From a virus: 53,277 bases of DNA. Below, piece by piece: positions 29,391-43,136 of this stretch (the first letter of the stretch is position 1; each line of letters begins with the position of its first letter). Under the pieces are notes generated by a model. It was not told the DNA's origin. It searched no databases and worked only from the letters and a program-made list of their open reading frames with translations. A program made the position numbers and the translations under genes. The stretch covers positions 1-53,277 of the IMG/VR virus record IMGVR_UViG_3300031975_001497; one strand, 5' to 3'.

Positions 29391-30991
29391 TGGATATTAT
29401 TATAGCAGGGTGTAGTATATCAGCTGACACAACAGCTTTAGATGTATCACATAGGTTAAATTCAAAAAATAAAAGTTATCATTCATACCCACATTTTATG
29501 AATAAACTTTTTGGTGAAACTTCAGGCACTCACCAAGAACTCAATAGTGTTAGTATTCATAATATATCAAGAGATGCTGCAGATAACGGTACAATTGCAA
29601 GAAATTTAATGCAGATAACTACTGAACTACTCGAAAAAGGTAAAAAACCTGAAGATATGTATGCTATTGTACAATGGAGTGGAATAGACAGACATAGTCT
29701 TTTTATAAATAAAAATTATGTATCAGTAAATAAATTTTATGATACACAATATAATGGTTGGAGTTTAAGTTCACTTGAACAAGATAAACCTCATTGGAAA
29801 GAATATTTTAGTAGTCATACAGATGAAAAGGCTTTAGATAATACACTAAAAAATGTTAAAAAAACTCAAGAGTTTTTAAATAAAAATGATATAAAACATA
29901 AAATGATATGTGGTTGGCAAATATTTGAAAACGACTTAAACTTAGAAAAACATATAGATATTTCTAATTTTTGGTTTCATTCTAATGAAGATGTTAAATA
30001 CGGTGGTATAATTGAATGGGCAAAGGATAATTTAGAAGAAAAATTTCATACACGAGGTAATGCATCTGCAGCTGGTTATGGTGATTATGATAGAGAAGAT
30101 AAACACCCATCTAATCAAGCTCAACATAGTTTTTTTAATAATGTTATTTTTAATATTATAGGTAAATATATTTTAAAAGATGAATATATAGTTACAACAG
30201 GTTGTAGTTTTACTAACTTTAAAACTACTTGGTCTGATTATCTTGAAGAACAGTTTAAAGATACACCCACAACAGTTTTAAACGTAGGACATAAAGGTAG
30301 TTCAAATGATATTATTCTCAGAGGTTTAATCACATCAGTTGATAATTTATTACGTGAAGGTAAAAAGATTCGTAAAGTAATTATTCAATTAACAACGATG
30401 GAAAGAAAATATATGATTAATCAAGGACAATTTGAAATGTCACCACCAGCACAAAACTTTTTGAAATCATCTTGGTCATCTTGGTTAATGCCAATGAACG
30501 AAGGTTTTAAAAATTCTCACGAGTTTTGGAAAACTTACTGGGAAAATATTCATTCAGATGAGTTACACTTTTTTGAATTACTTGAAAAAATATTCATGGT
30601 TCAATCGTATTTAAAATCTAAAAATATAGATTATACTATGTTTTGTGGTTGGGATTTATTTACTGATAGTACGAATAAAAATATATTTTCAAAAGAAGAA
30701 AAATACGAAAATATAAATAATGAATTATTAAAAGATAAATTTAGTTATTGTAATACAGAAACTCATAACTCGGTGTTTGGTATCAACCATTATTGGGATA
30801 TGATAGATTGGGATAATTGGTGGTTTTTCAACAATGAAAAGATAAAATTTGGTGGTTTGACTGAATGGTCACAATATAATTTAGAAAAAGATAAATGGTA
30901 TCAAGATGATTTACATCCATCATTTGATGCACATAAAAAATTTAAGGATGTAGTTATTTTAGATTTATTATACGGAGGAAATAATGATTAA
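29390..30991 (+). CDS. Tandem SGNH-like protein, internally duplicated
   Basis: 533 residues made of two similar halves. The first begins IIIAGCSISADTTA and ends near DREDKHPSNQAQHSF. The second begins TTGCSFTNFKTTWSDYL (about residue 268) and ends DDLHPSFDAHKKF. Internal duplication is visible directly: KMICGWQIFEND against TMFCGWDLFTDS, and KYGGIIEWAKDNLEEK against KFGGLTEWSQYNLEK. GCSxS plus a late D-x-HPS-x-AH block is the SGNH/GDSL layout (Ser in block I, His in block V), suggesting an O-acyl esterase or acyltransferase on sugars. The first half's DKHP block is less complete, so one half may be non-catalytic. Overlaps the carbamoyltransferase by 8 nt. Confidence 0.7.
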   Translation: MDIIIAGCSISADTTALDVSHRLNSKNKSYHSYPHFMNKLFGETSGTHQELNSVSIHNISRDAADNGTIARNLMQITTELLEKGKKPEDMYAIVQWSGIDRHSLFINKNYVSVNKFYDTQYNGWSLSSLEQDKPHWKEYFSSHTDEKALDNTLKNVKKTQEFLNKNDIKHKMICGWQIFENDLNLEKHIDISNFWFHSNEDVKYGGIIEWAKDNLEEKFHTRGNASAAGYGDYDREDKHPSNQAQHSFFNNVIFNIIGKYILKDEYIVTTGCSFTNFKTTWSDYLEEQFKDTPTTVLNVGHKGSSNDIILRGLITSVDNLLREGKKIRKVIIQLTTMERKYMINQGQFEMSPPAQNFLKSSWSSWLMPMNEGFKNSHEFWKTYWENIHSDELHFFELLEKIFMVQSYLKSKNIDYTMFCGWDLFTDSTNKNIFSKEEKYENINNELLKDKFSYCNTETHNSVFGINHYWDMIDWDNWWFFNNEKIKFGGLTEWSQYNLEKDKWYQDDLHPSFDAHKKFKDVVILDLLYGGNND

Positions 30992-32621
30992 AAAAGAAAA
31001 CAAAATTATAGGATTTCATTCTGGACACGATTGTTCATATTCTGTAATGGATAAAGGTATACCAGTTATACATAATGAACTTGAAAGATTCACTCGTAAA
31101 AAAGAACATCTAGGTGATGCTTTAGATTTCATAACTCAGACGTACGATGACTGGAAAAATGTAAAATATTTTACTCACGTTGTGGATAACTGGAAAGGTG
31201 GTCATACAGTTAGATATCCAGATACAGCAAAAATGTTAGATAAACACATTGAAGATGTTGATGGTGAATTTTGGTATTTTGGTCATCACCAATCACATGC
31301 AGCAAATGCTTTTTTTTCAAGTAACTTCGATGAAGCATTAATTGTAACAATCGATGCAGGTGGTTGGGACTTTGTAGAAGAGTGTGAAGGTAAACAACAG
31401 TATGATAAAGATGAAGTTATGGCTACAGGTTGGACAGTTTCTATCGGTAATGGTAATAATATAAAAAGATTAGAAATTAAAGATATATATGATTTCAACA
31501 TTGGTGGTGGTTGGAATAAAATGTTAGAACACGTATTTGATTTATCAACTGGTTATCCTTATGGTAATCAAGCTGGTACAATTATGGCAATGGCTTGTAT
31601 GGGTGATTATAAAAAATATGGTGATTTTTTCAAAGACCGTATACATTTACCACAAGTTATCGACCCTAGAAAAATCAAAGATGTGGTCAAAAAAGGTGGT
31701 GAAGAAGCTCAGTTCGATGTATCGGCAGCAATACAATGGTCTTCTGAGTATCAAATCATTAGAAGACTAGAATATTACGTACACAAGTATAAACCTAAAA
31801 ACTTGTGTTTAGCAGGTGGTGTATCTTTGAACTCTGTGCTTGTTGGTAGATTATATGAATTTTTTGAAGGTATAGTTGAAAACATATACATACCACCTGT
31901 ACCATATGACGCTGGTCTACCAATTGGAGCAAGTCAAATACTTTGGCATGGTGAAAACTTTATGAATCAACCAAGAATTAACTGGAAAGATAATAGTCCG
32001 ACTTATTTAGGGTTTACATATCACGAAGATACCATACAAGAAGCTATTAATAATAATAAAGATAAAGTTACAGCTGAAATTGTTGACGATGAGACTGTTG
32101 TTGATTTATTAACAAAAGATGATAACGTTATATCAGTATATGGTGGTGGTTCAGAATCAGGTCGTAGAGCTTTAGGTAACAGAAGTATTCTTGCTGACCC
32201 TCGAAGTAAAAATATGAAAGATATTATAAATGAAAAAGTAAAACATAGACAATGGTTTAGACCATTTGCTCCATCAATCATTAGAGAAGATGTAAATGAG
32301 TGGTTTGAAAGAGACATAGATAGTCCTTATATGACTACAGTAATTAAATTTCATAAAGACGCTAGAGAAAAAGTACCAGCAGTAGTTCATTTTGATGGTT
32401 CAGCTAGATTACAAACCGTTACAGAAAGTGATAACAAATGGTATTATAACTTCATTAAAAAGTTCAAAGAAAAAACAGGTGTACCAATTGTACTGAACAC
32501 AAGTTTTAATGATAGAGAACCTATTGTTGAAACACCAGAACACGCAATAAATTGTTTTTTACGAACAGATATAGACTATTTATATTTTAATGAACCAAAG
32601 ATACTACTTAAAAAAGTATAG
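30984..32621 (+). CDS. Carbamoyltransferase (NodU/CmcH/TobZ family)
   Basis: Transfers a carbamoyl group from carbamoyl phosphate (via carbamoyl-AMP) to a sugar hydroxyl. The N-terminal Kae1-like domain starts IIGFHSGHDCSYSVM and has GHHQSHAANAFFSS (about residue 95) with metal-binding His, then TIDAGGWDF and LAGGVSLNSVLVG. The C-terminal YrdC-like-linked domain has GRRALGNRSILADPR (about 393-407), RPFAPSII and the LNTSFNDREPIV end. Full length at 545 residues. GGAGG lies before ATG inside the previous stop. In NodU and related pathways this is a late decoration of a glycan or antibiotic. Confidence 0.92.
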   Translation: MIKKENKIIGFHSGHDCSYSVMDKGIPVIHNELERFTRKKEHLGDALDFITQTYDDWKNVKYFTHVVDNWKGGHTVRYPDTAKMLDKHIEDVDGEFWYFGHHQSHAANAFFSSNFDEALIVTIDAGGWDFVEECEGKQQYDKDEVMATGWTVSIGNGNNIKRLEIKDIYDFNIGGGWNKMLEHVFDLSTGYPYGNQAGTIMAMACMGDYKKYGDFFKDRIHLPQVIDPRKIKDVVKKGGEEAQFDVSAAIQWSSEYQIIRRLEYYVHKYKPKNLCLAGGVSLNSVLVGRLYEFFEGIVENIYIPPVPYDAGLPIGASQILWHGENFMNQPRINWKDNSPTYLGFTYHEDTIQEAINNNKDKVTAEIVDDETVVDLLTKDDNVISVYGGGSESGRRALGNRSILADPRSKNMKDIINEKVKHRQWFRPFAPSIIREDVNEWFERDIDSPYMTTVIKFHKDAREKVPAVVHFDGSARLQTVTESDNKWYYNFIKKFKEKTGVPIVLNTSFNDREPIVETPEHAINCFLRTDIDYLYFNEPKILLKKV

Positions 32622-32810: not shown

Positions 32811-33548
32811 ATGCAATTTACTTTCGGTATAACAACAACAAAAGAACCACAACGAATGTCTCGAAATACTAATAACCATATTAGAGAGATGATTGAAGCT
32901 ATCAGAGAAAATAAAATACCCGATGATAGTTATGAAATTATTATCGTTGGTGGTGACGATGAATATCAAAATGATAACGATGTTACACATTTTGAGTTTG
33001 ATGACATAAACCCTAGACCAGGTTGGTTTACACGAAAAAAGAATATGATTACAGAGAATGCTAAATTTAATAATATAGTTTTTTCACACGATTATATAAG
33101 ACTTGACAAAGATTGGTACAACGGGTTTCTGAAGTTTGGTGATGATTGGGATATTTGTATGTGTATTCATAAAGCAATAGAAGGTCATAGATTTAGAGAT
33201 TGGTTAGCATGGGATGACCCAGATTTATGTTATAATGTTGATGGATTTGACCATAGAATCGCATTAGTCCCGTATGATTATACAAAAACCCAATACATGC
33301 AAATCTCTGGATTTTGGTGGGTTGCAAAGAAAACTGTAATGCAACAAGACCCATTAGATGAAAAATTAGCTTGGGGTGATGCAGAAGATGTTGAGTGGTC
33401 AATGAGAGTAAGAGACAAGTACAACTATGTTATGAATACCAATTCAGTCGTAGAAGTTTTGAGACGAAATAAAAGACTATCATCTTATTATGTCGAAGGT
33501 AATGATAAGTATTACAATACTAATTGGTTAGATGAATGGAAACTGTAA
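32811..33548 (+). CDS. Glycosyltransferase, GT2-like
   Basis: 245 residues. FTFGITTTKEPQRMSRN is the first strand, YEIIIVGGDDEYQNDNDV the second, GWFTRKKNMITENAKFNNIV the helix before the metal site, and FSHDYIRLDKDWY the DxD-like region. SGFWWVAKK and LAWGDAEDVEWSMRVRDKY match the ED-x-E-W catalytic-base region typical of GT2 chain-adding enzymes. No membrane segment. It starts 1 nt after the previous ORF and overlaps the next by 13 nt. Confidence 0.75.
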   Translation: MQFTFGITTTKEPQRMSRNTNNHIREMIEAIRENKIPDDSYEIIIVGGDDEYQNDNDVTHFEFDDINPRPGWFTRKKNMITENAKFNNIVFSHDYIRLDKDWYNGFLKFGDDWDICMCIHKAIEGHRFRDWLAWDDPDLCYNVDGFDHRIALVPYDYTKTQYMQISGFWWVAKKTVMQQDPLDEKLAWGDAEDVEWSMRVRDKYNYVMNTNSVVEVLRRNKRLSSYYVEGNDKYYNTNWLDEWKL

Positions 33549-34258
33549 AGAAAAATTTACACAAAGACAAGAGATGTTTTATCGTTGGTACTGGAAGTAG
33601 TTTAGATAACGTAGATATGTCGTTATTAGAAAATGAAATAACCATTGGTATCAATTTAATACTTCACAAAAAAGATTTTGTACCTGATTATTTATGTGTA
33701 GCAGATACTCAAGTAATAAAACATAATTACGATACAGTATTTTCTGATAGAATGTCTAATGGTACTTATGTGATAGGTAATGGTTGTAAAATGACAGGTA
33801 AAGGTAATTGCACAAACGGTCCAGGCTCTACTTGTATCGGGGTACAATTAGACCCTACATTTAAAAATATCTATACATTAGAACATTGGGAAAAAAGTGG
33901 TATATTTATTAATCACGTTAATGATGAAAGAGATAATTTATTAAAAACTGAAGAGTATTATATCGATACAGAAAATTTTAAAGTGTTCACTTCATATGGT
34001 GGTAGTACAGTTGATAATTTAGCTATACCATTAGCTGTGTATTTAGGGTTTAAAGAAATATACTTATTAGGGTGTGACGGTGGTTGGAATCATTTCTATG
34101 ACGCAGTACAAAAACCAGGTAAACGAGAGTGGATAAATTATAATCACGTAAAAAAAGAGCTTGACAAGTATAGTGTAAATTTATTAAATTGTGATGCTAC
34201 AAACGCTTTTCAAGAACTTGAATATAAAAAGTTAGATGAGGTTTTAAATGAATTTTAA
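33536..34258 (+). CDS. DUF115/MptE-like or GT42-like Rossmann protein
   Basis: 240 residues starting with a FIVGTGSSLDNVDMSLLENE motif: a Gly-rich loop, GxGxSL, after strand 1, then ITIGINLILHKKDFVPDYLCVAD. A later GGSTVDNLAIPLAVYLGFKEIYLLGCD is also conserved. This arrangement is found in the DUF115 family (MptE, flagellin-glycosylation MAF proteins) and in Cst-type sialyltransferases. In a glycan cluster a sugar-transfer role, possibly using a CMP-activated sugar, is the best guess; the CMP-transferase-like gene 35413 lies just downstream. Substrate unknown. Confidence 0.65.
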   Translation: METVKKNLHKDKRCFIVGTGSSLDNVDMSLLENEITIGINLILHKKDFVPDYLCVADTQVIKHNYDTVFSDRMSNGTYVIGNGCKMTGKGNCTNGPGSTCIGVQLDPTFKNIYTLEHWEKSGIFINHVNDERDNLLKTEEYYIDTENFKVFTSYGGSTVDNLAIPLAVYLGFKEIYLLGCDGGWNHFYDAVQKPGKREWINYNHVKKELDKYSVNLLNCDATNAFQELEYKKLDEVLNEF

Positions 34259-34964
34259 TGATATAGAAAATTTTAAATACAAAGGTATTGCAAAAGGTAT
34301 TGTTGAGGATTTAAATAACAATATCAATGGTAGAGTAGCTTTGAACAATATGTTACAATCAACTCACGTTTTATATATAATAAAAAATTTATTAGGTGAT
34401 AAATGTAAAACAGTATTAGAGATTGGTACATTGTGGGGTGGTGCATTGTTAACGATGATGCAAACTGAACATAAGTCAAAATTTGTATCAATAGATATGT
34501 TTGAAGGTTTTTATCCAGAGTTATTAGGTGAGGGAAATAGTGACCAAAACTTTGGTGTAAATACATTAGAATTAGTTACTGAAAACATAGAGAAAAATAA
34601 TGAATGGAAACACGAATATGATTTAATTAAAGGTTCATCACACGATTCAAAAGTTATAAATTATGTAAAAGAAAACTACCCTGAGATTGATTTACTTTTT
34701 ATTGACGGTGACCATACAAAGAAAGGTGTATTACAGGATTGGGATGATTATTCAAATTTAGTAACTAAAGGTGGTATCGTTGTGTTCGATGATTATTGGG
34801 TAGGTAAATATGAAAGAGCAGCTTGGAGAAAAGAAGATGATGAAGGTGTAAAATGGATGGATGTTGTTGGAGCTGTTGATGAGATAATTAATAATAAAAC
34901 ATTTTTAAGAAATTGGAAAGACGTTGGTCTTTTTGGTGACAAAAAAATTATTGAAAGGCTATAA
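34248..34964 (+). CDS. SAM-dependent methyltransferase (class I)
   Basis: CKTVLEIGTLWGGALLTMMQ is motif I (E-x-G-x-x-x-G) for S-adenosylmethionine. KFVSIDMFEGF supplies the acidic residue at the end of strand 2, and DLLFIDGDHTKKGVLQDWD with GGIVVFDDYWVG matches the Methyltransf_24/cephalosporin-hydroxylase-like group, whose D-GDH-x metal site is seen here. 238 residues. Probably O-methylates a sugar. GAGG at 34237-34240. The end overlaps the YjbQ-like gene (TAATG). Confidence 0.8.
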   Translation: MNFNDIENFKYKGIAKGIVEDLNNNINGRVALNNMLQSTHVLYIIKNLLGDKCKTVLEIGTLWGGALLTMMQTEHKSKFVSIDMFEGFYPELLGEGNSDQNFGVNTLELVTENIEKNNEWKHEYDLIKGSSHDSKVINYVKENYPEIDLLFIDGDHTKKGVLQDWDDYSNLVTKGGIVVFDDYWVGKYERAAWRKEDDEGVKWMDVVGAVDEIINNKTFLRNWKDVGLFGDKKIIERL

Positions 34965-35416
34965 TGAAACAAACAATTGAAATTAAAACAGATAAACTAT
35001 TCACAATTATAACACCAACAGTTGAGCGTTATGCTAAAGAGTGGGGTAAAAGTGGTATAGTTCACATCTACACAACACATACAACAACATCACTTAGAGT
35101 TTTAGAAAATGAATTATTACATCACGCTGATATTAGATTTTGGTTAGATAAATATTTACCAAAACATAAACCCGATAACAGAAGATATTTACACGATTTG
35201 ATATCACTACGAAACGATGTACCACCAGAGGAAAGAATAAATGCATATTCACATATGAGGTCACTATTTTTTAACACCTCTGAGACGATACCTGTTGAAG
35301 AAGGTTGGTTGATGTTAGGTAAATGGCAAGATATACATTTTCTTGAATTAGACCCAGGTGATAATGTATACCCTCAACAAACAAGAAAAATTATTTGTAC
35401 TTTTATTGAAGAATGA
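34964..35416 (+). CDS. YjbQ/UPF0047 family protein
   Basis: 150 residues with the family blocks GIVHIYTTHTTTSLRVLENE, DIRFWLDKYLPK, HMRSLFFNTSETIPVEEGWL and GKWQDIHFLELD. This is the YjbQ/UPF0047 fold, whose E. coli member can replace thiamine-phosphate synthase weakly in vivo and whose normal function is unsettled. The conserved His and Glu residues of the family pocket (HTTT, ENE, H-R) are present. It is unusual inside a phage glycan region, between a methyltransferase and a CMP-sugar-synthetase-like gene with overlaps on both sides, so it may act on the same pathway. Confidence 0.85.
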   Translation: MKQTIEIKTDKLFTIITPTVERYAKEWGKSGIVHIYTTHTTTSLRVLENELLHHADIRFWLDKYLPKHKPDNRRYLHDLISLRNDVPPEERINAYSHMRSLFFNTSETIPVEEGWLMLGKWQDIHFLELDPGDNVYPQQTRKIICTFIEE

Positions 35417-36063
35417 AGTTTTTTATAATAATAAAAGAAAAATCTGAACGATTACCAAATAAAAACTTTTTGGATTTAGGTGGTATACCATTATATAAAC
35501 ATTTGTTAAACACATTAAAAACTCAAGATGTATATATAGATACAGATAGTGATACAATAATTAATGAATGTAAAACTTTAGATAAAGTAACTTGTTATAA
35601 AAGAGATGCTACACACGTAGAACTGGAGAATAATATTGAATTTGGAGTAAGTCCTGTACTACTTATGATAGAGAACTTTCTTAACAAATATGTTCAAGAT
35701 GAGAATGAAGTTATTATAACACCTCACGTTACATCACCGTTTATTACATTAAAAACAATGTTAGATGCAACAAAGATGTTATCAGAATACGATACAGTAT
35801 GTGCTTGTACAGAACATCAAGAATTTACTTACTTTAAAGGAGAACCAGTGAACTTTAATCCTGATGTAGTTTCTAAAACACAAGACTTAGAACCAGTGAT
35901 AATGGGTAACGGTGCTTTCTTTATTTTTACAAAAAAAGAGTTTATAAAGAATAAAAATAGAACGAGTGAAAATAACTACTTTTATCCAATAAACTTTCCC
36001 GAGAGTGTTGAAATAGACACACTCGATGATTTTAAACTAGCGGAGATGTATGAACTTAGTTGA
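35413..36063 (+). CDS. CMP-sugar (acylneuraminate-type) cytidylyltransferase-like protein
   Basis: 216 residues beginning FFIIIKEKSERLPNKNFLDL, which matches the CTP-binding loop of NeuA/KdsB-type enzymes (xRxxSxRLPxKN); the leading Arg is Lys here. IPLYKHLLNTLK and VYIDTDSD follow as in NeuA, then the ITPHVTSPFI strand and FYPINFPESVEIDTLDDFKLAE at the C-terminus. It would activate a 2-keto sugar acid as a CMP derivative. No NeuB-type PEP-condensing synthase is seen, but a DRE-TIM aldolase overlaps its 3' end. Confidence 0.8.
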   Translation: MKFFIIIKEKSERLPNKNFLDLGGIPLYKHLLNTLKTQDVYIDTDSDTIINECKTLDKVTCYKRDATHVELENNIEFGVSPVLLMIENFLNKYVQDENEVIITPHVTSPFITLKTMLDATKMLSEYDTVCACTEHQEFTYFKGEPVNFNPDVVSKTQDLEPVIMGNGAFFIFTKKEFIKNKNRTSENNYFYPINFPESVEIDTLDDFKLAEMYELS

Positions 36064-37003
36064 TGTTACATTAAGAGATGGTGGATTTACTTGTGATTTT
36101 GATTGGCCTATGGAGTTCACACAAGAGTATTATAATTTGATGTGTGAATTAGATGTTAGTTATGTAGAAATGGGTTATTGGAAACAAACTGCAAAAAGTA
36201 AAAATAGATTTTTTAATTTAGATATCGAAACAGTCAAAGAAGTTACAGGTGAACAAGGTAAAAATAATGTATCAGTAATGATTGACTATTCTTATTGTAG
36301 TAAAGATTTAAACGACTACCCTACAGACAATCAAAATGAAATTAAAATGATTAGAATGACGTGTAGAAAAGATATGGTTGAAGAAGGTTTTAATTTCGCA
36401 CAGAAGTTAAAAAAACATACTAACTTAGAGATAGCATTTAATCTTTTCAACACAACTAACTATACAGACGATGAACTTAACTCAGCACTTGATATAGTTC
36501 TTGATTCTGATTTTGATATTATAGGTTTTGCAGATACACACGGACATTTAAACTTACATAAAGATATAAAAAGATATGAACACTTTTTCAAGAGAATAAA
36601 AGACTCTGGTAAGAATACTTGTTTTCATCTACATAACCATACAGGTAAAGCATATATGAATTATATTATGTGTCTCGATAGTCCTTATGTAGATTTTTGT
36701 GATACGTCAGTAATGTCATTAGGTAAAGGTGCTGGAAATCTAAAGTTAGAAAATGTTTTAGATAATAATAAAGCATTAAGATTAAATCAGTTTATTCACA
36801 AGTATTATGAATCATTATTTAAAAAAACAGTAAGTCCATATCTTATGGTTACTGGTAGATATAGTATTACAGACCATTATGCTACACAAGCTAGAAAGTT
36901 AAATTTAGATATGGAAAGCTTCTCAGAGTTTTGTAATACAGTAGAAGGTTTAAATAGAGATAACTTTGATAAAACACTTCTTGAAAATTGGAGAGTATCT
37001 TGA
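36050..37003 (+). CDS. DRE-TIM metallolyase (HMGL-like aldolase)
   Basis: NLVDVTLRDGGFTCDFDW at the N-terminus is the R-D-G motif of the HMG-CoA-lyase / isopropylmalate-synthase / 4-hydroxy-2-oxovalerate-aldolase superfamily. IIGFADTHGHLN and CFHLHNHTGKAYMN (HxH about 193-195) provide the metal ligands. VDFCDTSVMSLGKGAGNLKLE closes the barrel. At 317 residues it is a single catalytic barrel without the LeuA regulatory domain. Its substrate is unknown; overlap with a CMP-transferase-like gene and an SDR gene suggests it makes or trims a carbon chain for an unusual activated sugar or acid. GGAG at 36042-36045. Confidence 0.8.
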   Translation: MNLVDVTLRDGGFTCDFDWPMEFTQEYYNLMCELDVSYVEMGYWKQTAKSKNRFFNLDIETVKEVTGEQGKNNVSVMIDYSYCSKDLNDYPTDNQNEIKMIRMTCRKDMVEEGFNFAQKLKKHTNLEIAFNLFNTTNYTDDELNSALDIVLDSDFDIIGFADTHGHLNLHKDIKRYEHFFKRIKDSGKNTCFHLHNHTGKAYMNYIMCLDSPYVDFCDTSVMSLGKGAGNLKLENVLDNNKALRLNQFIHKYYESLFKKTVSPYLMVTGRYSITDHYATQARKLNLDMESFSEFCNTVEGLNRDNFDKTLLENWRVS

Positions 37004-37704
37004 GTAATATATTAATTACAGGTATAAGTTCTGGTATAGGTAAAGCATTAGCAAAAACTTACTCTAATAATGGTTATGAAATATACGGTCTTAGTAGAAC
37101 AAAAAGTAATGAGTATAACCACGTAGAATGTGATTTAGAAAAAGTTTATGATATTTCATACAAATTGTCAACGTTATTAAAAAATGTTGAACAGATAGAT
37201 GTTGTGTATTTAAACGCTGGTGTGCTAGGTAATATAGAATATTTAAATAATATAAAACTTCACGACCTTGAAACTTCTTTTACAATTAACACTTGGGCTA
37301 ACAAAGTAATTATTGAGTATCTAATAACGAATAATATAAATGTTAAGCAAGTCGTTGCGATATCTTCTGGTGCATCTCAAAAAACGTACACGGGCTGGGG
37401 TGAATACTCTATATCTAAAGCAGCTCTTAATATGATGATACAAGTTTATGCAGAGGAGAATCCAGACATACATTTTTTGTCAGTATCACCTGGACCTGTT
37501 GATACACCAATGCAAGATTACATAAACAAAAATATAGACGGTCGTAAATATAAATGGAAAAAGAAGTTTTCTGATATGAAAAAAAATAATGATTTACCAA
37601 AAGCAAGTTGGGTTGCGGATAACTTACACCAGATAATGCCAACTTTAAAAAAATACAAAAGTGGTAGTTTCTTAGATTTAAGAAATCTACAATTTTTAAT
37701 ATAG
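37000..37704 (+). CDS. Short-chain dehydrogenase/reductase
   Basis: A classical SDR. TGISSGIG is the NAD(P)-binding TGxxxGxG, followed by NAGV and the catalytic set of a Ser in AISSGAS with YSISK (Y136, K140). LSVSPGPVDTPM is the standard post-active-site loop. I start it at TTG 37000, which overlaps the previous stop (TTGA) and has GGAG at 36990-36993; an in-frame TTG at 36988 is less well placed. 234 residues. Probably oxidises or reduces the product of the neighbouring aldolase or a sugar intermediate. Confidence 0.85.
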   Translation: MSNILITGISSGIGKALAKTYSNNGYEIYGLSRTKSNEYNHVECDLEKVYDISYKLSTLLKNVEQIDVVYLNAGVLGNIEYLNNIKLHDLETSFTINTWANKVIIEYLITNNINVKQVVAISSGASQKTYTGWGEYSISKAALNMMIQVYAEENPDIHFLSVSPGPVDTPMQDYINKNIDGRKYKWKKKFSDMKKNNDLPKASWVADNLHQIMPTLKKYKSGSFLDLRNLQFLI

Positions 37705-37714
37705 GGATATAAAT

Positions 37715-38773
37715 ATGAAGAACTTAATAGTAACAGCAGCTGGTCTTTCAACACGTTTCGAAGGACTGAAACCGAAATGGATGTTGACTCACCCTAAAGG
37801 TAACTGGATGATAGTTGAAGCATTAAAGGCTTTTGATTTTAAATCAGTTGATAAGGTTTATTTATCATTTCTACGAAATCATATCGAACAATATAATTGT
37901 TTAGACGCAATAAAACTATGTATTACAGAGTTAGGTATCGAAGACAAAACTGAAATAGTGCTATTAGATGAACAAACAAAGAATCAACCACATACAGTTT
38001 ATAATGTTATCAAACAGGCCAATATAAAAGGTCAGATAATAATAAAAGAAGTAGACAATTATTTTACTTATAAAGTTGAAGATGGTAACTATATGTGTTA
38101 TTACGATTTAAATGACACTACTTCAATTAACCCTTCAAATAAAAGTTATATCACTATTGATGATAAAGGTTACATAACAGACTTGGTTGAGAAAAAAGTA
38201 ATATCATCAACATTTGGTTGTGGTAGTTATTCTTTTGAAACAGCAGTTGATTTCTGTAATTACTTTGAAACTCTACAAAAAGATAATCTATTTTTATCTG
38301 ATATTATTTATAATATGGTACTCGATGGTTATAAGTTTAAAGCTGTAAAATCTACAGATTACATAGATTGGGGTACTAAAGAGGACTGGTTTAATTATGT
38401 TAGACAATATAAAACACTATTTGTTGATTTAGACGGGACATTAGTCAAGAGCTCAGGTAAATACACACCACCTTATTGGGGTGAAACAGAAGGTATTAAA
38501 GAAAACATTGAGTTTTTAAATGAACTATATGATACAGGTAAAGTTTATATTATATTAACTACAGCAAGAAGTTCAGATGCTAAAGAGGCTACGCTAGAAC
38601 AATTAGAACGTGAAGGTATAAAGTATGATAATATTATATTTAATTTGTTTCACGCCAATAGAACAATAATAAATGATTACGGTACATCAAATCCATACCC
38701 AACGTGTGATGCTGTGAATTTAGTTAGAAATTCAAATGAATTAGAGAGATTTTTAAAGGATTTAGGTAAATGA
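37715..38773 (+). CDS. Fused sugar nucleotidyltransferase and HAD-like phosphatase
   Basis: Two domains. Residues 1-225: NLIVTAAGLSTRFEGLKPKW, the nucleotidyltransferase loop (AAGxxTRF, then PK), followed by IIKEVDNYF and a FGCGSYSFETA segment, as in sugar-1-phosphate nucleotidyltransferases. Residues 230-352: FVDLDGTLVKSSGK, HAD motif I (D238, D240), IILTTARS as motif II, and a late INDYG acidic motif. The fusion suggests that dephosphorylation and nucleotidyl transfer of one intermediate are linked. The C-terminal substrate pocket is unknown. AGGG lies before ATG; the end overlaps the GDPD-like gene. Confidence 0.8.
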   Translation: MKNLIVTAAGLSTRFEGLKPKWMLTHPKGNWMIVEALKAFDFKSVDKVYLSFLRNHIEQYNCLDAIKLCITELGIEDKTEIVLLDEQTKNQPHTVYNVIKQANIKGQIIIKEVDNYFTYKVEDGNYMCYYDLNDTTSINPSNKSYITIDDKGYITDLVEKKVISSTFGCGSYSFETAVDFCNYFETLQKDNLFLSDIIYNMVLDGYKFKAVKSTDYIDWGTKEDWFNYVRQYKTLFVDLDGTLVKSSGKYTPPYWGETEGIKENIEFLNELYDTGKVYIILTTARSSDAKEATLEQLEREGIKYDNIIFNLFHANRTIINDYGTSNPYPTCDAVNLVRNSNELERFLKDLGK

Positions 38774-39219
38774 TATTCATTGCACATAGAGGTAATATAA
38801 ATGGTAGAAAGCCAAGACTTGAAAACGGTGATACATACTGTCAAGAAGCAATTGATAAAGGTTTTAATGTAGAAATTGATGTTCATTGGTATGAAGGTAT
38901 ATTTTGGACAGGTCACGACAGACCTCAATACAGAGTTAATACAGAGTTCTTAAAAAAGAAAGAAGTTTGGTGTCACGCTAAAGATATTGAAGCTCTATAT
39001 CATTTACAAAAAATAGAAGCTCATTGTTTCTTTCATCAAAAAGATGATGTTACATTAACCTCAAATGGTTACTTGTGGACATACCCAACATACCCTTTAA
39101 CACAAAAATCAATATGTGTTTTACCAGAAATACAAAAAGTAGATTATAATAACTGTGCTGGGATATGTAGTGATTACATATCAAAGGAAAAAGAGAGTTG
39201 GACATTCAAAAATTATTAA
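38770..39219 (+). CDS. Mini GDPD-like phosphodiesterase
   Basis: 149 residues with FIAHRGNINGRKPRLENG, GFNVEIDVHWYEGIFWTGHD: the His, Glu-Asn, E-x-D and GHD residues of the glycerophosphodiester phosphodiesterase active site, in order. Typical family members have 230-300 residues and a full TIM barrel. This one has only about half, ending with a PTYPLTQKSICVLPE segment instead of the usual second catalytic His region. It could be a reduced enzyme cutting glycerol- or sugar-phosphodiesters. Starts in an ATGA overlap and shares 22 nt with the next gene. Confidence 0.7.
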   Translation: MIFIAHRGNINGRKPRLENGDTYCQEAIDKGFNVEIDVHWYEGIFWTGHDRPQYRVNTEFLKKKEVWCHAKDIEALYHLQKIEAHCFFHQKDDVTLTSNGYLWTYPTYPLTQKSICVLPEIQKVDYNNCAGICSDYISKEKESWTFKNY

Positions 39220-41102: not shown

Positions 41103-43136
41103 ATGAAAAAACTAAAAATATATAGTTCACAATTTAATTACCAATACGGTAACTCAATTCATTTCCCATACAGTATTGCTTCTTTGTTTGCCTACATCAA
41201 ATCATTTCCAGAGTTAGATAAACAATTACAATTTGAAAAAACATTTATATTTAGAAATAAATTAGATGAGTATGTTGATGAAATAGAAGACCCTGATATT
41301 TTATTATGTTCTTGTTATGTTTGGAATTGGGAAATAACAAACATGCTAGCAAAGAGAGTTAAAGAAAAATATCCTGATTGTAAAGTTATATACGGTGGAC
41401 CACAAGTACCATTAAGATATGAAGGTAATGTTCCAACAGGTTGGGTAGAAAACTCTACAGGTAATTTTTTCAAAGATTACCCACACGTAGATGTTTTAGT
41501 TCATCAAGAAGGTGAGTACACTATCAAAGATTTATTTGAAAAAATTGTTAATAATGAATTAATTACTGAAGTTGGTGGTATAGAGACAGCAGACTTCAGA
41601 ACGTTAGCACAAGATAGAATTTGGGATTTAGATACATTACCATCACCATATTTGACTGATTTAGTTTGGGATTTAGTAGAACCAGTAGAAGGTGTTGAGT
41701 ATATTGCAGCTTGGGAAACAAATAGAGGGTGTCCTTTTCAATGTACGTTTTGTGATTGGGGTAGTGCCACGAAAACAAAAGTTAGAAAATGGGATATGGA
41801 TAAATTATTTGAAGAGATAGAATGGTTTGCTGATAATAAAATACCATATATTGATTGTTGTGATGCTAACTTTGGTATTTTTACAGATAGAGATTTAAGT
41901 TTAGCAAAGAAATTAAGTTCAGAAAAGAAATCAAAAGGTTATCCAGGTAGAATTAGACCAGCATGGACAAAGAGTTCATCAGATAAAGTTATACCAGTTG
42001 CTAAAGAATTATTAGATGCTGATTTATTACGAGCAGTAACGTTAGCAGTTCAGTCATTAGACCCCACAACTCTTCAAGTAATTAAAAGAAGAAATATTAA
42101 ATTCGATAAATTTGGTGAGTTAGTTCACAAATTTAGAAACGAGAAGATAGAAAATTATACAGAATTAATTATGGGTATGCCTGGTGAAACACTTGAAAGT
42201 TATAAAGTTGGGTTAGAACAATTAATGGAGTTGTTTCCAAGACCAGTAGTGTTTATTTATAATTGTGGTGTTTTTGTTAATGCACCTATGAACGAACCAA
42301 ACTATGCTAAGAAATATGATATACAAACTATTAAATCACCAATATATCTATGGCATTCTTCAGTTCACAATAGAGGTGAAATACCTGAATATGAAGATAC
42401 AATAGTTAGTACTAATACTTTTAATCTCGATGAGTTAAAAGAAATGTATGTATATGGTTGGTTTATGCAAGCGTTTCATAGTTTAGGTATAACTGAATAC
42501 TTATCTAAGTTTTACAATCAAGTTTATGATTTAAAGTATATAGATTTTTATACATCATTTAAAGATTATTGTGAAAACTTTGATTCTATGTTTAAAACAG
42601 AATATGATACATTAAGAGAATATATAGATATTGGATATGACGGTGGTGGATGGAACCATTATGATGAAAGTCTAGCAGAGATACTGTGGCCAATCGAAGA
42701 AGCGACTTGGTTAAGATGTGTAAAGAGTAGTGATAAATTACAAAATGAACTTTTTAAATTTATAGAATTTTTAGAAAAACAAAGAGGTTTTGAAACAGAC
42801 ATAAATGTAATTTCAGACTTAATTAAATTTCAAGTATATTTATTGATGACGATGAATAAGAGTGATGAAATAAAATCACTAAGTTCAAATTATGATTGGA
42901 AAGATTTCTTAGTTAATAATAAAACTAAGATGTCAGAATTAACAAAAATATCTACTGAGTATCACTATAAAAACAAAGTATTAGAAACTGAAAGAGATAA
43001 ATGGTGTATGACAGCTATATGGATAGGTCGTTCTCAAGGTAATTATAAATGTCACCCTGAGTTTTTATTTGAGAGTCTAAATGATGTACCACAAGGTGCA
43101 ATACAACAAGGAGAAGAAGCTCATTCAGGAGTTTAA
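41103..43136 (+). CDS. Radical SAM enzyme with B12-binding-type N-terminal domain
   Basis: 677 residues. The first 180 form a Rossmann-like domain with PDILLCSCYVWNWEITNMLA and YGGPQVPLRYEGN, as in cobalamin-binding radical SAM proteins, but without the DxHxxG ligand motif. NRGCPFQCTFCDWG (about residue 208) has the CxxxCxxC that binds the 4Fe-4S cluster. IPYIDCCDANFGIF, LAVQSLDPTTLQVIKRRN and LIMGMPGETLESY complete the barrel. The C-terminal 250 residues are helical and unfamiliar. It probably performs radical chemistry on a sugar or lipid. It is preceded by a 19-nt AT-rich gap and has a weak ribosome-binding site. Confidence 0.85.
   Translation: MKKLKIYSSQFNYQYGNSIHFPYSIASLFAYIKSFPELDKQLQFEKTFIFRNKLDEYVDEIEDPDILLCSCYVWNWEITNMLAKRVKEKYPDCKVIYGGPQVPLRYEGNVPTGWVENSTGNFFKDYPHVDVLVHQEGEYTIKDLFEKIVNNELITEVGGIETADFRTLAQDRIWDLDTLPSPYLTDLVWDLVEPVEGVEYIAAWETNRGCPFQCTFCDWGSATKTKVRKWDMDKLFEEIEWFADNKIPYIDCCDANFGIFTDRDLSLAKKLSSEKKSKGYPGRIRPAWTKSSSDKVIPVAKELLDADLLRAVTLAVQSLDPTTLQVIKRRNIKFDKFGELVHKFRNEKIENYTELIMGMPGETLESYKVGLEQLMELFPRPVVFIYNCGVFVNAPMNEPNYAKKYDIQTIKSPIYLWHSSVHNRGEIPEYEDTIVSTNTFNLDELKEMYVYGWFMQAFHSLGITEYLSKFYNQVYDLKYIDFYTSFKDYCENFDSMFKTEYDTLREYIDIGYDGGGWNHYDESLAEILWPIEEATWLRCVKSSDKLQNELFKFIEFLEKQRGFETDINVISDLIKFQVYLLMTMNKSDEIKSLSSNYDWKDFLVNNKTKMSELTKISTEYHYKNKVLETERDKWCMTAIWIGRSQGNYKCHPEFLFESLNDVPQGAIQQGEEAHSGV

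Follow-up and report, generated by a model that had tools for sequence, protein, structure and literature searches.

Two described pathways lead to sugar acids activated with cytidine monophosphate (CMP). The CMP-sialate, legionaminate and pseudaminate pathway consists of NeuB (a synthase that condenses phosphoenolpyruvate, PEP) or PseI, a phosphatase, NeuA or PseF and a GT29 or GT42 transferase, while the CMP-3-deoxy-manno-octulosonate (Kdo) pathway consists of KdsA, KdsC and KdsB. Prediction of sialic-acid-like sugars relies on finding NeuB or KdsA. The window analyzed here, a virus record of 53,277 bases taken at its full length (IMG/VR IMGVR_UViG_3300031975_001497), is from a marine phage that encodes UvsX, a DnaB-type helicase, ribonucleotide reductase and DNA polymerase, and its glycan genes span about 30 kb. 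Among these is a block in which a cytidylyltransferase (CTPt) adjoins a DRE-TIM/HMGL-like aldolase (ALD). The block resembles the first pathway in its NeuA/PseF-type CMP-transferase, in the haloacid dehalogenase (HAD) phosphatase of its bacterial versions and in the candidate sialyltransferase-fold transferases nearby, and the second in the KdsB-type transferase and HAD protein of many bacterial versions and in the KdsB-type domain of viral fusions. It is unlike both in that a DRE-TIM metallo-aldolase is present instead of NeuB or KdsA. On balance, and with some reserve, we favor the view that this YjbQ-CTPt-ALD block, with its oxidoreductase and its GT42/MptE-like and GDPD-like neighbors, is the phage version of a widespread ALD-based route to a CMP-activated ulosonic (2-keto-3-deoxy) acid.

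All genes of the block lie on the plus strand. A YjbQ/UPF0047 family protein (34964..35416; PF01894, 6.6e-24; TIGR00149) is followed by the NeuA/PseF-like CTPt, the predicted CMP-activating enzyme (35413..36063; CTP_transf_3, PF02348, 6e-13), the metal-dependent ALD, the proposed C-C bond former (36050..37003; PF00682, 1.6e-11; 3dxi match, 2e-17), and a classical short-chain dehydrogenase/reductase (SDR) of the sepiapterin/benzil-reductase-like type (37000..37704; PF00106, 1.7e-23; PDB 3kzv, 5e-17). The CTPt and ALD reading frames share 14 nt, and the 3' end of the YjbQ gene also overlaps the CTPt start (34964-35416 versus 35413). The SDR most likely starts at the TTG at 37000, in a TTGA overlap with the ALD stop, because that residue is where the alignment with the L002 and L004 proteins begins (loci and contigs are numbered L, genomes G). 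The YjbQ-CTPt-ALD-SDR order is kept in four contigs, the window and the viral contigs L002-L004, whose ALDs are 87-89% identical to that of the window; GDPD-like and MptE-like genes are close by, and the other flanks differ. The gene for the small GDPD-like protein (38770..39219; phrog_34507, 3e-24) directly follows the SDR gene in L002 and L003 and is two genes after it in L004, while that for the MptE-like/GT42-like protein (33536..34258; PF01973, 1.6e-13) stays near the module in all three. The conserved block is made up of the MptE/GT42-like, YjbQ, CTPt, ALD, SDR and GDPD-like genes.

In the proposed route, the metal-dependent ALD would take the place of PEP-dependent NeuB or KdsA and form a 2-keto-3-deoxy acid from the pyruvate enolate and an aldehyde (probably an aldose or its phosphate). 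If the acceptor were phosphorylated, an HAD phosphatase would next remove the phosphate (the product of a dedicated gene in bacteria; host or other phosphatases for the phage), after which the NeuA/KdsB-type enzyme would form the CMP ester from CTP. A sialyltransferase-fold enzyme (in some bacteria a GT29 enzyme, in the window the 33536 protein) would then move the sugar acid onto a surface glycan. The window SDR may tailor the precursor or the product, and the YjbQ and GDPD-like proteins may also have roles in the same route. A laboratory one-pot sialylation that combines sialic acid aldolase, CMP-sialic acid synthetase and a sialyltransferase (PMC9875253) follows the same logic of aldolase, CMP-transferase and transferase, but it is an artificial combination and relies on a NanA-type Schiff-base aldolase of an unrelated class, whereas the gene set described here is natural. 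No description of an ALD-CMP-transferase cassette was found in the open-access literature, although subscription papers may contain one.

The window ALD has the traits of the DRE-TIM metallolyases (HMGL-like, PF00682), namely a TIM barrel, a D-x-T-L-R-D-G motif and an HxH metal site. When its AlphaFold2 model (predicted local distance difference test, pLDDT, 93) was searched with Foldseek, 3dxi was matched first, then the pyruvate aldolases HsaF, DmpG and AmnG, ahead of the isopropylmalate and homocitrate synthases. An alignment of 89 sequences, DmpG among them, shows no variation at R9, D10, E40, D162, H193, H195, D218 and N230 (window numbering). The ALD shares with the 4-hydroxy-2-oxovalerate aldolases DmpG, HsaF and AmnG the fold, the Asp/His/His metal ligands and a DmpG-type glycine loop; it differs from them in the replacement of His21 by Tyr or Phe, in having no partner dehydrogenase DmpF and in its location in a glycan cluster rather than an aromatic degradation cluster, and it falls below the curated NCBIfam cut-off for that activity (TIGR03217; 31 bits versus 286). 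The nearest solved structure, 3DXI (the N-terminal domain of Bacteroides vulgatus BVU_2661, from structural genomics), belongs to the same family and falls in the CTPt-associated clade of the ALD tree; no function assignment for it was found in the open-access literature. Unlike full-length bacterial members, the window ALD does not have a C-terminal GT29-like domain (hhalign probability 95% in the bacterial two-domain ALD). This domain of approximately 190 aa, distantly similar to GT29 sialyltransferases, is found in L012 (8001-9596), an Idiomarina locus with the triad of ALD, CTPt and HAD, and in other bacterial ALDs of 500-550 aa, which may be ALD-transferase fusions.

The family resemblance also raises the alternative that ALD is a Claisen-type synthase, similar to isopropylmalate or homocitrate synthase, that joins an acyl-CoA to a 2-keto acid and yields a hydroxy-diacid to be activated or attached as a non-sugar decoration. 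ALD is in the same superfamily as these enzymes, it has weak NCBIfam matches to the LysS and LeuA families and the structures of both synthases come next in the fold search. However, DmpG and HsaF rank above them, the CTPt partner is of the sialate/Kdo type and the ALD glycine loop, GxG(R/K)xxGN, is nearer to the DmpG loop (GAGAGN) than to the Claisen motif (GxGERxGN). We regard a Claisen reaction as unlikely, and pyruvate-type chemistry is favored over the weaker CoA-ester option that an earlier note on this DNA, made from the sequence alone, had held out.

The significant PDB matches of the window CTPt are CMP-sialate synthetases (best match 1qwj, 1.2e-7), and the alignment takes in the C-terminal IDTLDDF region. 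Its score is below the NCBIfam PseF cut-off (TIGR03584; 45 bits versus 206, 7.6e-12) and, judged by sequence, it can be classed as generally NeuA-like only and is not assignable to PseF. The CTPt domains of the viral fusions described below resemble KdsB. The candidate CMP-sugar-dependent glycosyltransferase is the 33536 protein, whose AlphaFold2 model (pLDDT 67) has Campylobacter jejuni CstII (1ro8, E-value: 4.8e-4) as its best PDB fold match; Cst-I and mammalian sialyltransferases are also among the ten best. No GT42 sequence match was found for this protein in the PDB, and the model is suggestive only of a GT42-like sialyltransferase fold. A GT29 sialyltransferase homologue follows the ALD set in three Bacteroidota clusters (L038, L039 and L078), and GT29 homologues are also located near viral ALD copies.

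The pairing of ALD with CTPt extends well beyond these phages, and homologous ALDs directly adjoin CTPt and an HAD phosphatase in many phyla. Scans of bacterial genomes and of viral sequences recovered 80 and 52 loci, respectively, which came down to 58 and 28 once redundancy was removed, and positions within two genes of ALD were compared with those lying 4-7 away in each locus. For the bacteria, CTPt occupied 32/225 near positions versus 7/333 distant ones (p=4e-8) and an HAD phosphatase 31/225 versus 0/333 (p=1.6e-13); for the viruses, CTPt was found at 10/112 versus 1/175. When genome samples were searched for ALD alone and the neighbors read afterwards, CTPt was downstream of ALD in 11/11 new bacterial loci, one of which, L158, has an antisense open reading frame overlying the gene, and HAD was also present in all 10 loci that were long enough. 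A second phylum-level genome sample returned the query genome only. ALD is joined to a KdsB-like CTPt in one polypeptide of 537-589 aa in 12 non-redundant viral loci; these fusions make up a single clade, and in that of L117 (5998-7692) Pfam finds both domains. Fusion-bearing viral contigs are L087, L088, L090, L093-L095, L107, L110, L115, L117, L119, L123 and L131, some of which are 150-270 kb in length. The fusion was found in no isolated phage record searched, and 50,697 records of annotated or isolated phages gave a single weak, partial ALD match. On a Leisingera plasmid, the RefSeq labels of the set read aldolase catalytic domain-containing protein, 3-deoxy-manno-octulosonate cytidylyltransferase and HAD family hydrolase. 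The earlier note's proposal that an HMGL-type metallolyase stands beside a CMP-transferase in the position of NeuB or KdsA is thus borne out as a recurrent arrangement, in adjacency far above background, in the viral fusions and in the context-blind loci.

Two variants of the ALD set were observed. In four bacterial cassettes, an HpcH/HpaI aldolase, also of the pyruvate type, is inserted between ALD and CTPt (ALD-HpcH/HpaI aldolase-(SDR)-CTPt-HAD in L156, L171, L172 and L175), so that each set contains two kinds of pyruvate-type aldolase; the insertion fits 2-keto-3-deoxy acid chemistry. No HpcH/HpaI aldolase was found in the window. In the second variant, ALD adjoins an approximately 600-aa thiamine pyrophosphate (TPP) enzyme without CTPt, both in Lachnospiraceae and relatives (L008, L011, L042, L044 and L071), where an HAD phosphatase and an SDR are also present, and in the viral loci L096, L120, L122, L125 and L126. 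This sub-group perhaps serves something else, such as a branched-sugar route. The window could be a degenerate relative of the ALD-HAD-TPP group, in which ALD would make a polyhydroxy 2-keto acid and the TPP enzyme would move the acyl part to a nucleotide keto-sugar to yield a branched-chain sugar. TPP enzymes are neighbors of ALD at 15/225 near versus 0/333 distant bacterial positions as well as in five non-redundant viral loci, CDP-sugar genes adjoin the TPP-type ALD in L044, and the window ALD is placed nearer the TPP half of the tree, without strong support. This explanation nevertheless strikes us as quite unlikely, as no TPP enzyme was found in the window and the invariant partner in all four close phage contigs is a CMP-transferase. 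Of the alternative carbon-carbon bond-forming route to an activated keto-acid or branched sugar that the earlier note had suggested, the keto-acid part is favored, while the branched sugar fits the TPP-associated sub-group.

PEP-condensing synthases were searched for as NeuB (PF03102) and the DAHP/KDO8P-synthase family (PF00793). There was no match in the window or in L002-L004, which may be fragments. Seven bacterial genomes that carry the pair (G009, G012, G015, G017, G024, G031 and G035; Rossellomorea, Paenibacillus, Mediterraneibacter, a Bacillus metagenome-assembled genome and three clostridial ones), some of them incomplete assemblies, have no strong NeuB match and no KDO8P synthase above the cut-off, and their weak synthase matches, where there are any, are of the DAHP-synthase type. 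The pair is thus found in Bacillota genomes without KdsA. The earlier note had considered that a NeuB or KdsA encoded elsewhere might feed the CMP-transferase; none was identified in these possibly incomplete phage contigs or in at least seven pair-bearing bacterial genomes. KdsA is present in most of the Gram-negative genomes examined. Since the class II aldol reaction is reversible, ALD might instead run in the cleaving direction, in catabolism or precursor supply, with CTPt activating an ulosonic acid supplied by the host, for example Kdo or a sialic acid, and the frequency of KdsA would agree with this. We find such a role highly improbable: ALD is fused or adjacent to CTPt, the pair is kept in the seven genomes above, and the Gillisia locus L078 has ALD-CTPt-HAD-GT29 a few kb after a NeuB-HAD-CTPt triad, each set with its own transferase and phosphatase.

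Beyond the phage block, we tentatively propose, with less assurance, that the cassette of DRE-TIM pyruvate aldolase, HAD phosphatase and CMP-transferase constitutes a second, PEP-independent natural route to CMP-ulosonic acids in Bacteroidota, Pseudomonadota, Bacillota and others and, with the enzymes separate or fused, in marine phages, allowing sialic-acid-like surface sugars to be made without NeuB or KdsA. If an aldolase can replace these synthases, CMP-activated sugar acids with an influence on surface recognition, phage adsorption and immunity may also be produced by organisms and phages in which the corresponding genes are missing. The solved but unassigned aldolase family of 3DXI would also gain a function, and ready-made aldolase-CMP-synthetase fusions would become available for glycan synthesis.

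Six observations weigh against an ALD-based ulosonic acid route in the window. First, the residue at the position of the DmpG base His21, which follows LRDGS, is Tyr or Phe in nearly the whole ALD family and Phe in the window; therefore, the acid/base residue must differ. Second, the window ALD is only 18-26% identical to bacterial ALDs and is placed on a long branch. Third, the conserved phage block is without a dedicated HAD phosphatase, the only HAD domain of the window being in a non-conserved gene discussed below. Because of this and the low identity, assigning the function of the bacterial ALDs to that of the window is a further extrapolation. Fourth, the match of the 33536 protein to CstII/GT42 has a template-modeling (TM) score of about 0.43 for a model with a pLDDT of 67. 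Fifth, the second aldolase of the four HpcH/HpaI cassettes blurs which enzyme makes the keto acid. Sixth, a sub-group of ALDs is paired with HAD and a TPP enzyme in the absence of CTPt, and CMP activation is therefore not universal in the family.

Comparison of the window with its near relatives gave dN 0.07-0.10 and dS 0.57-0.63 for ALD (ratio of nonsynonymous to synonymous substitution rates, dN/dS, 0.12-0.15) and dN 0.07-0.12 and dS 0.40-0.82 for CTPt (dN/dS about 0.14-0.18). Because these ratios are well below 1, the module genes are under purifying selection. YjbQ is 83-87% identical to its relatives, and the SDR is 58-64% identical to those of L002-L004. Least probable of all is a chance grouping, in which glycan genes of a variable region lie side by side in the window but do not work in one pathway: neighboring genes do shuffle between relatives, as the NTP-transferase-HAD gene described below shows, but the order kept in four contigs, the low dN/dS and the same ALD-CTPt pair in distant lineages argue against it. 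YjbQ/UPF0047 invariably comes first in the phage block, yet was not seen beside ALD in other lineages.

Downstream of the SDR, at 37715..38773 on the plus strand, is a gene encoding a nucleotidyltransferase-like N-terminus, which aligns with HAD-NTP proteins, fused to a C-terminal HAD domain that matches phrog_1238/415 (NTP-HAD). The earlier note had read CTPt, ALD, SDR and NTP-HAD as one unit. Its coordinates, frames and gene types were correct, with CTP_transf_3, HMGL-like and SDR domains confirmed by Pfam, as were the overlap of the first three genes and the 11-nt gap between the SDR stop and the NTP-HAD start. However, the gene directly after the SDR is the GDPD-like one in L002 and L003, whereas L004 has an unrelated 193-aa gene there, and no ALD was found within about 5 kb of NTP-HAD relatives in 17/17 viral contigs. 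Because of this absence from L002-L004 and the lack of ALD near its relatives, NTP-HAD is ruled out as a module member and is a separate mobile unit, inserted here; YjbQ, upstream of CTPt, belongs to the module. The order recovered was YjbQ-CTPt-ALD-SDR in phage relatives and ALD-CTPt-HAD in bacteria, and the phosphatase that the note had seen in the fusion is, in bacteria, a separate HAD_2 protein. Copies of NTP-HAD at 69-80% identity occur in many marine viral contigs, often adjoining a GDPD-like gene. Marine virus AG-345-E15 encodes a protein 44% identical to NTP-HAD, with no ALD open reading frame in its retrieved flanks. Relatives of the window carry instead an HAD-NTP protein with the domain order reversed (L004, 2124-3482).

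Genes for CTPt, a DRE-TIM enzyme and a B12 radical SAM protein raised the possibility of a phosphonate pathway, which was rejected, as no protein with the PEP-mutase EDK(x5)NS motif was found in the window or the ALD loci, although divergent enzymes escape this motif. The B12-binding radical SAM protein is a KedN5-like C-methyltransferase (41103-43136), and a NodU-type carbamoyltransferase is encoded at 30984-32621. Between the 33536 and YjbQ genes is a class I methyltransferase of the Methyltransf_24/CmcI-like type (34248..34964, plus strand), which is linked to the block in an order that is not strict.

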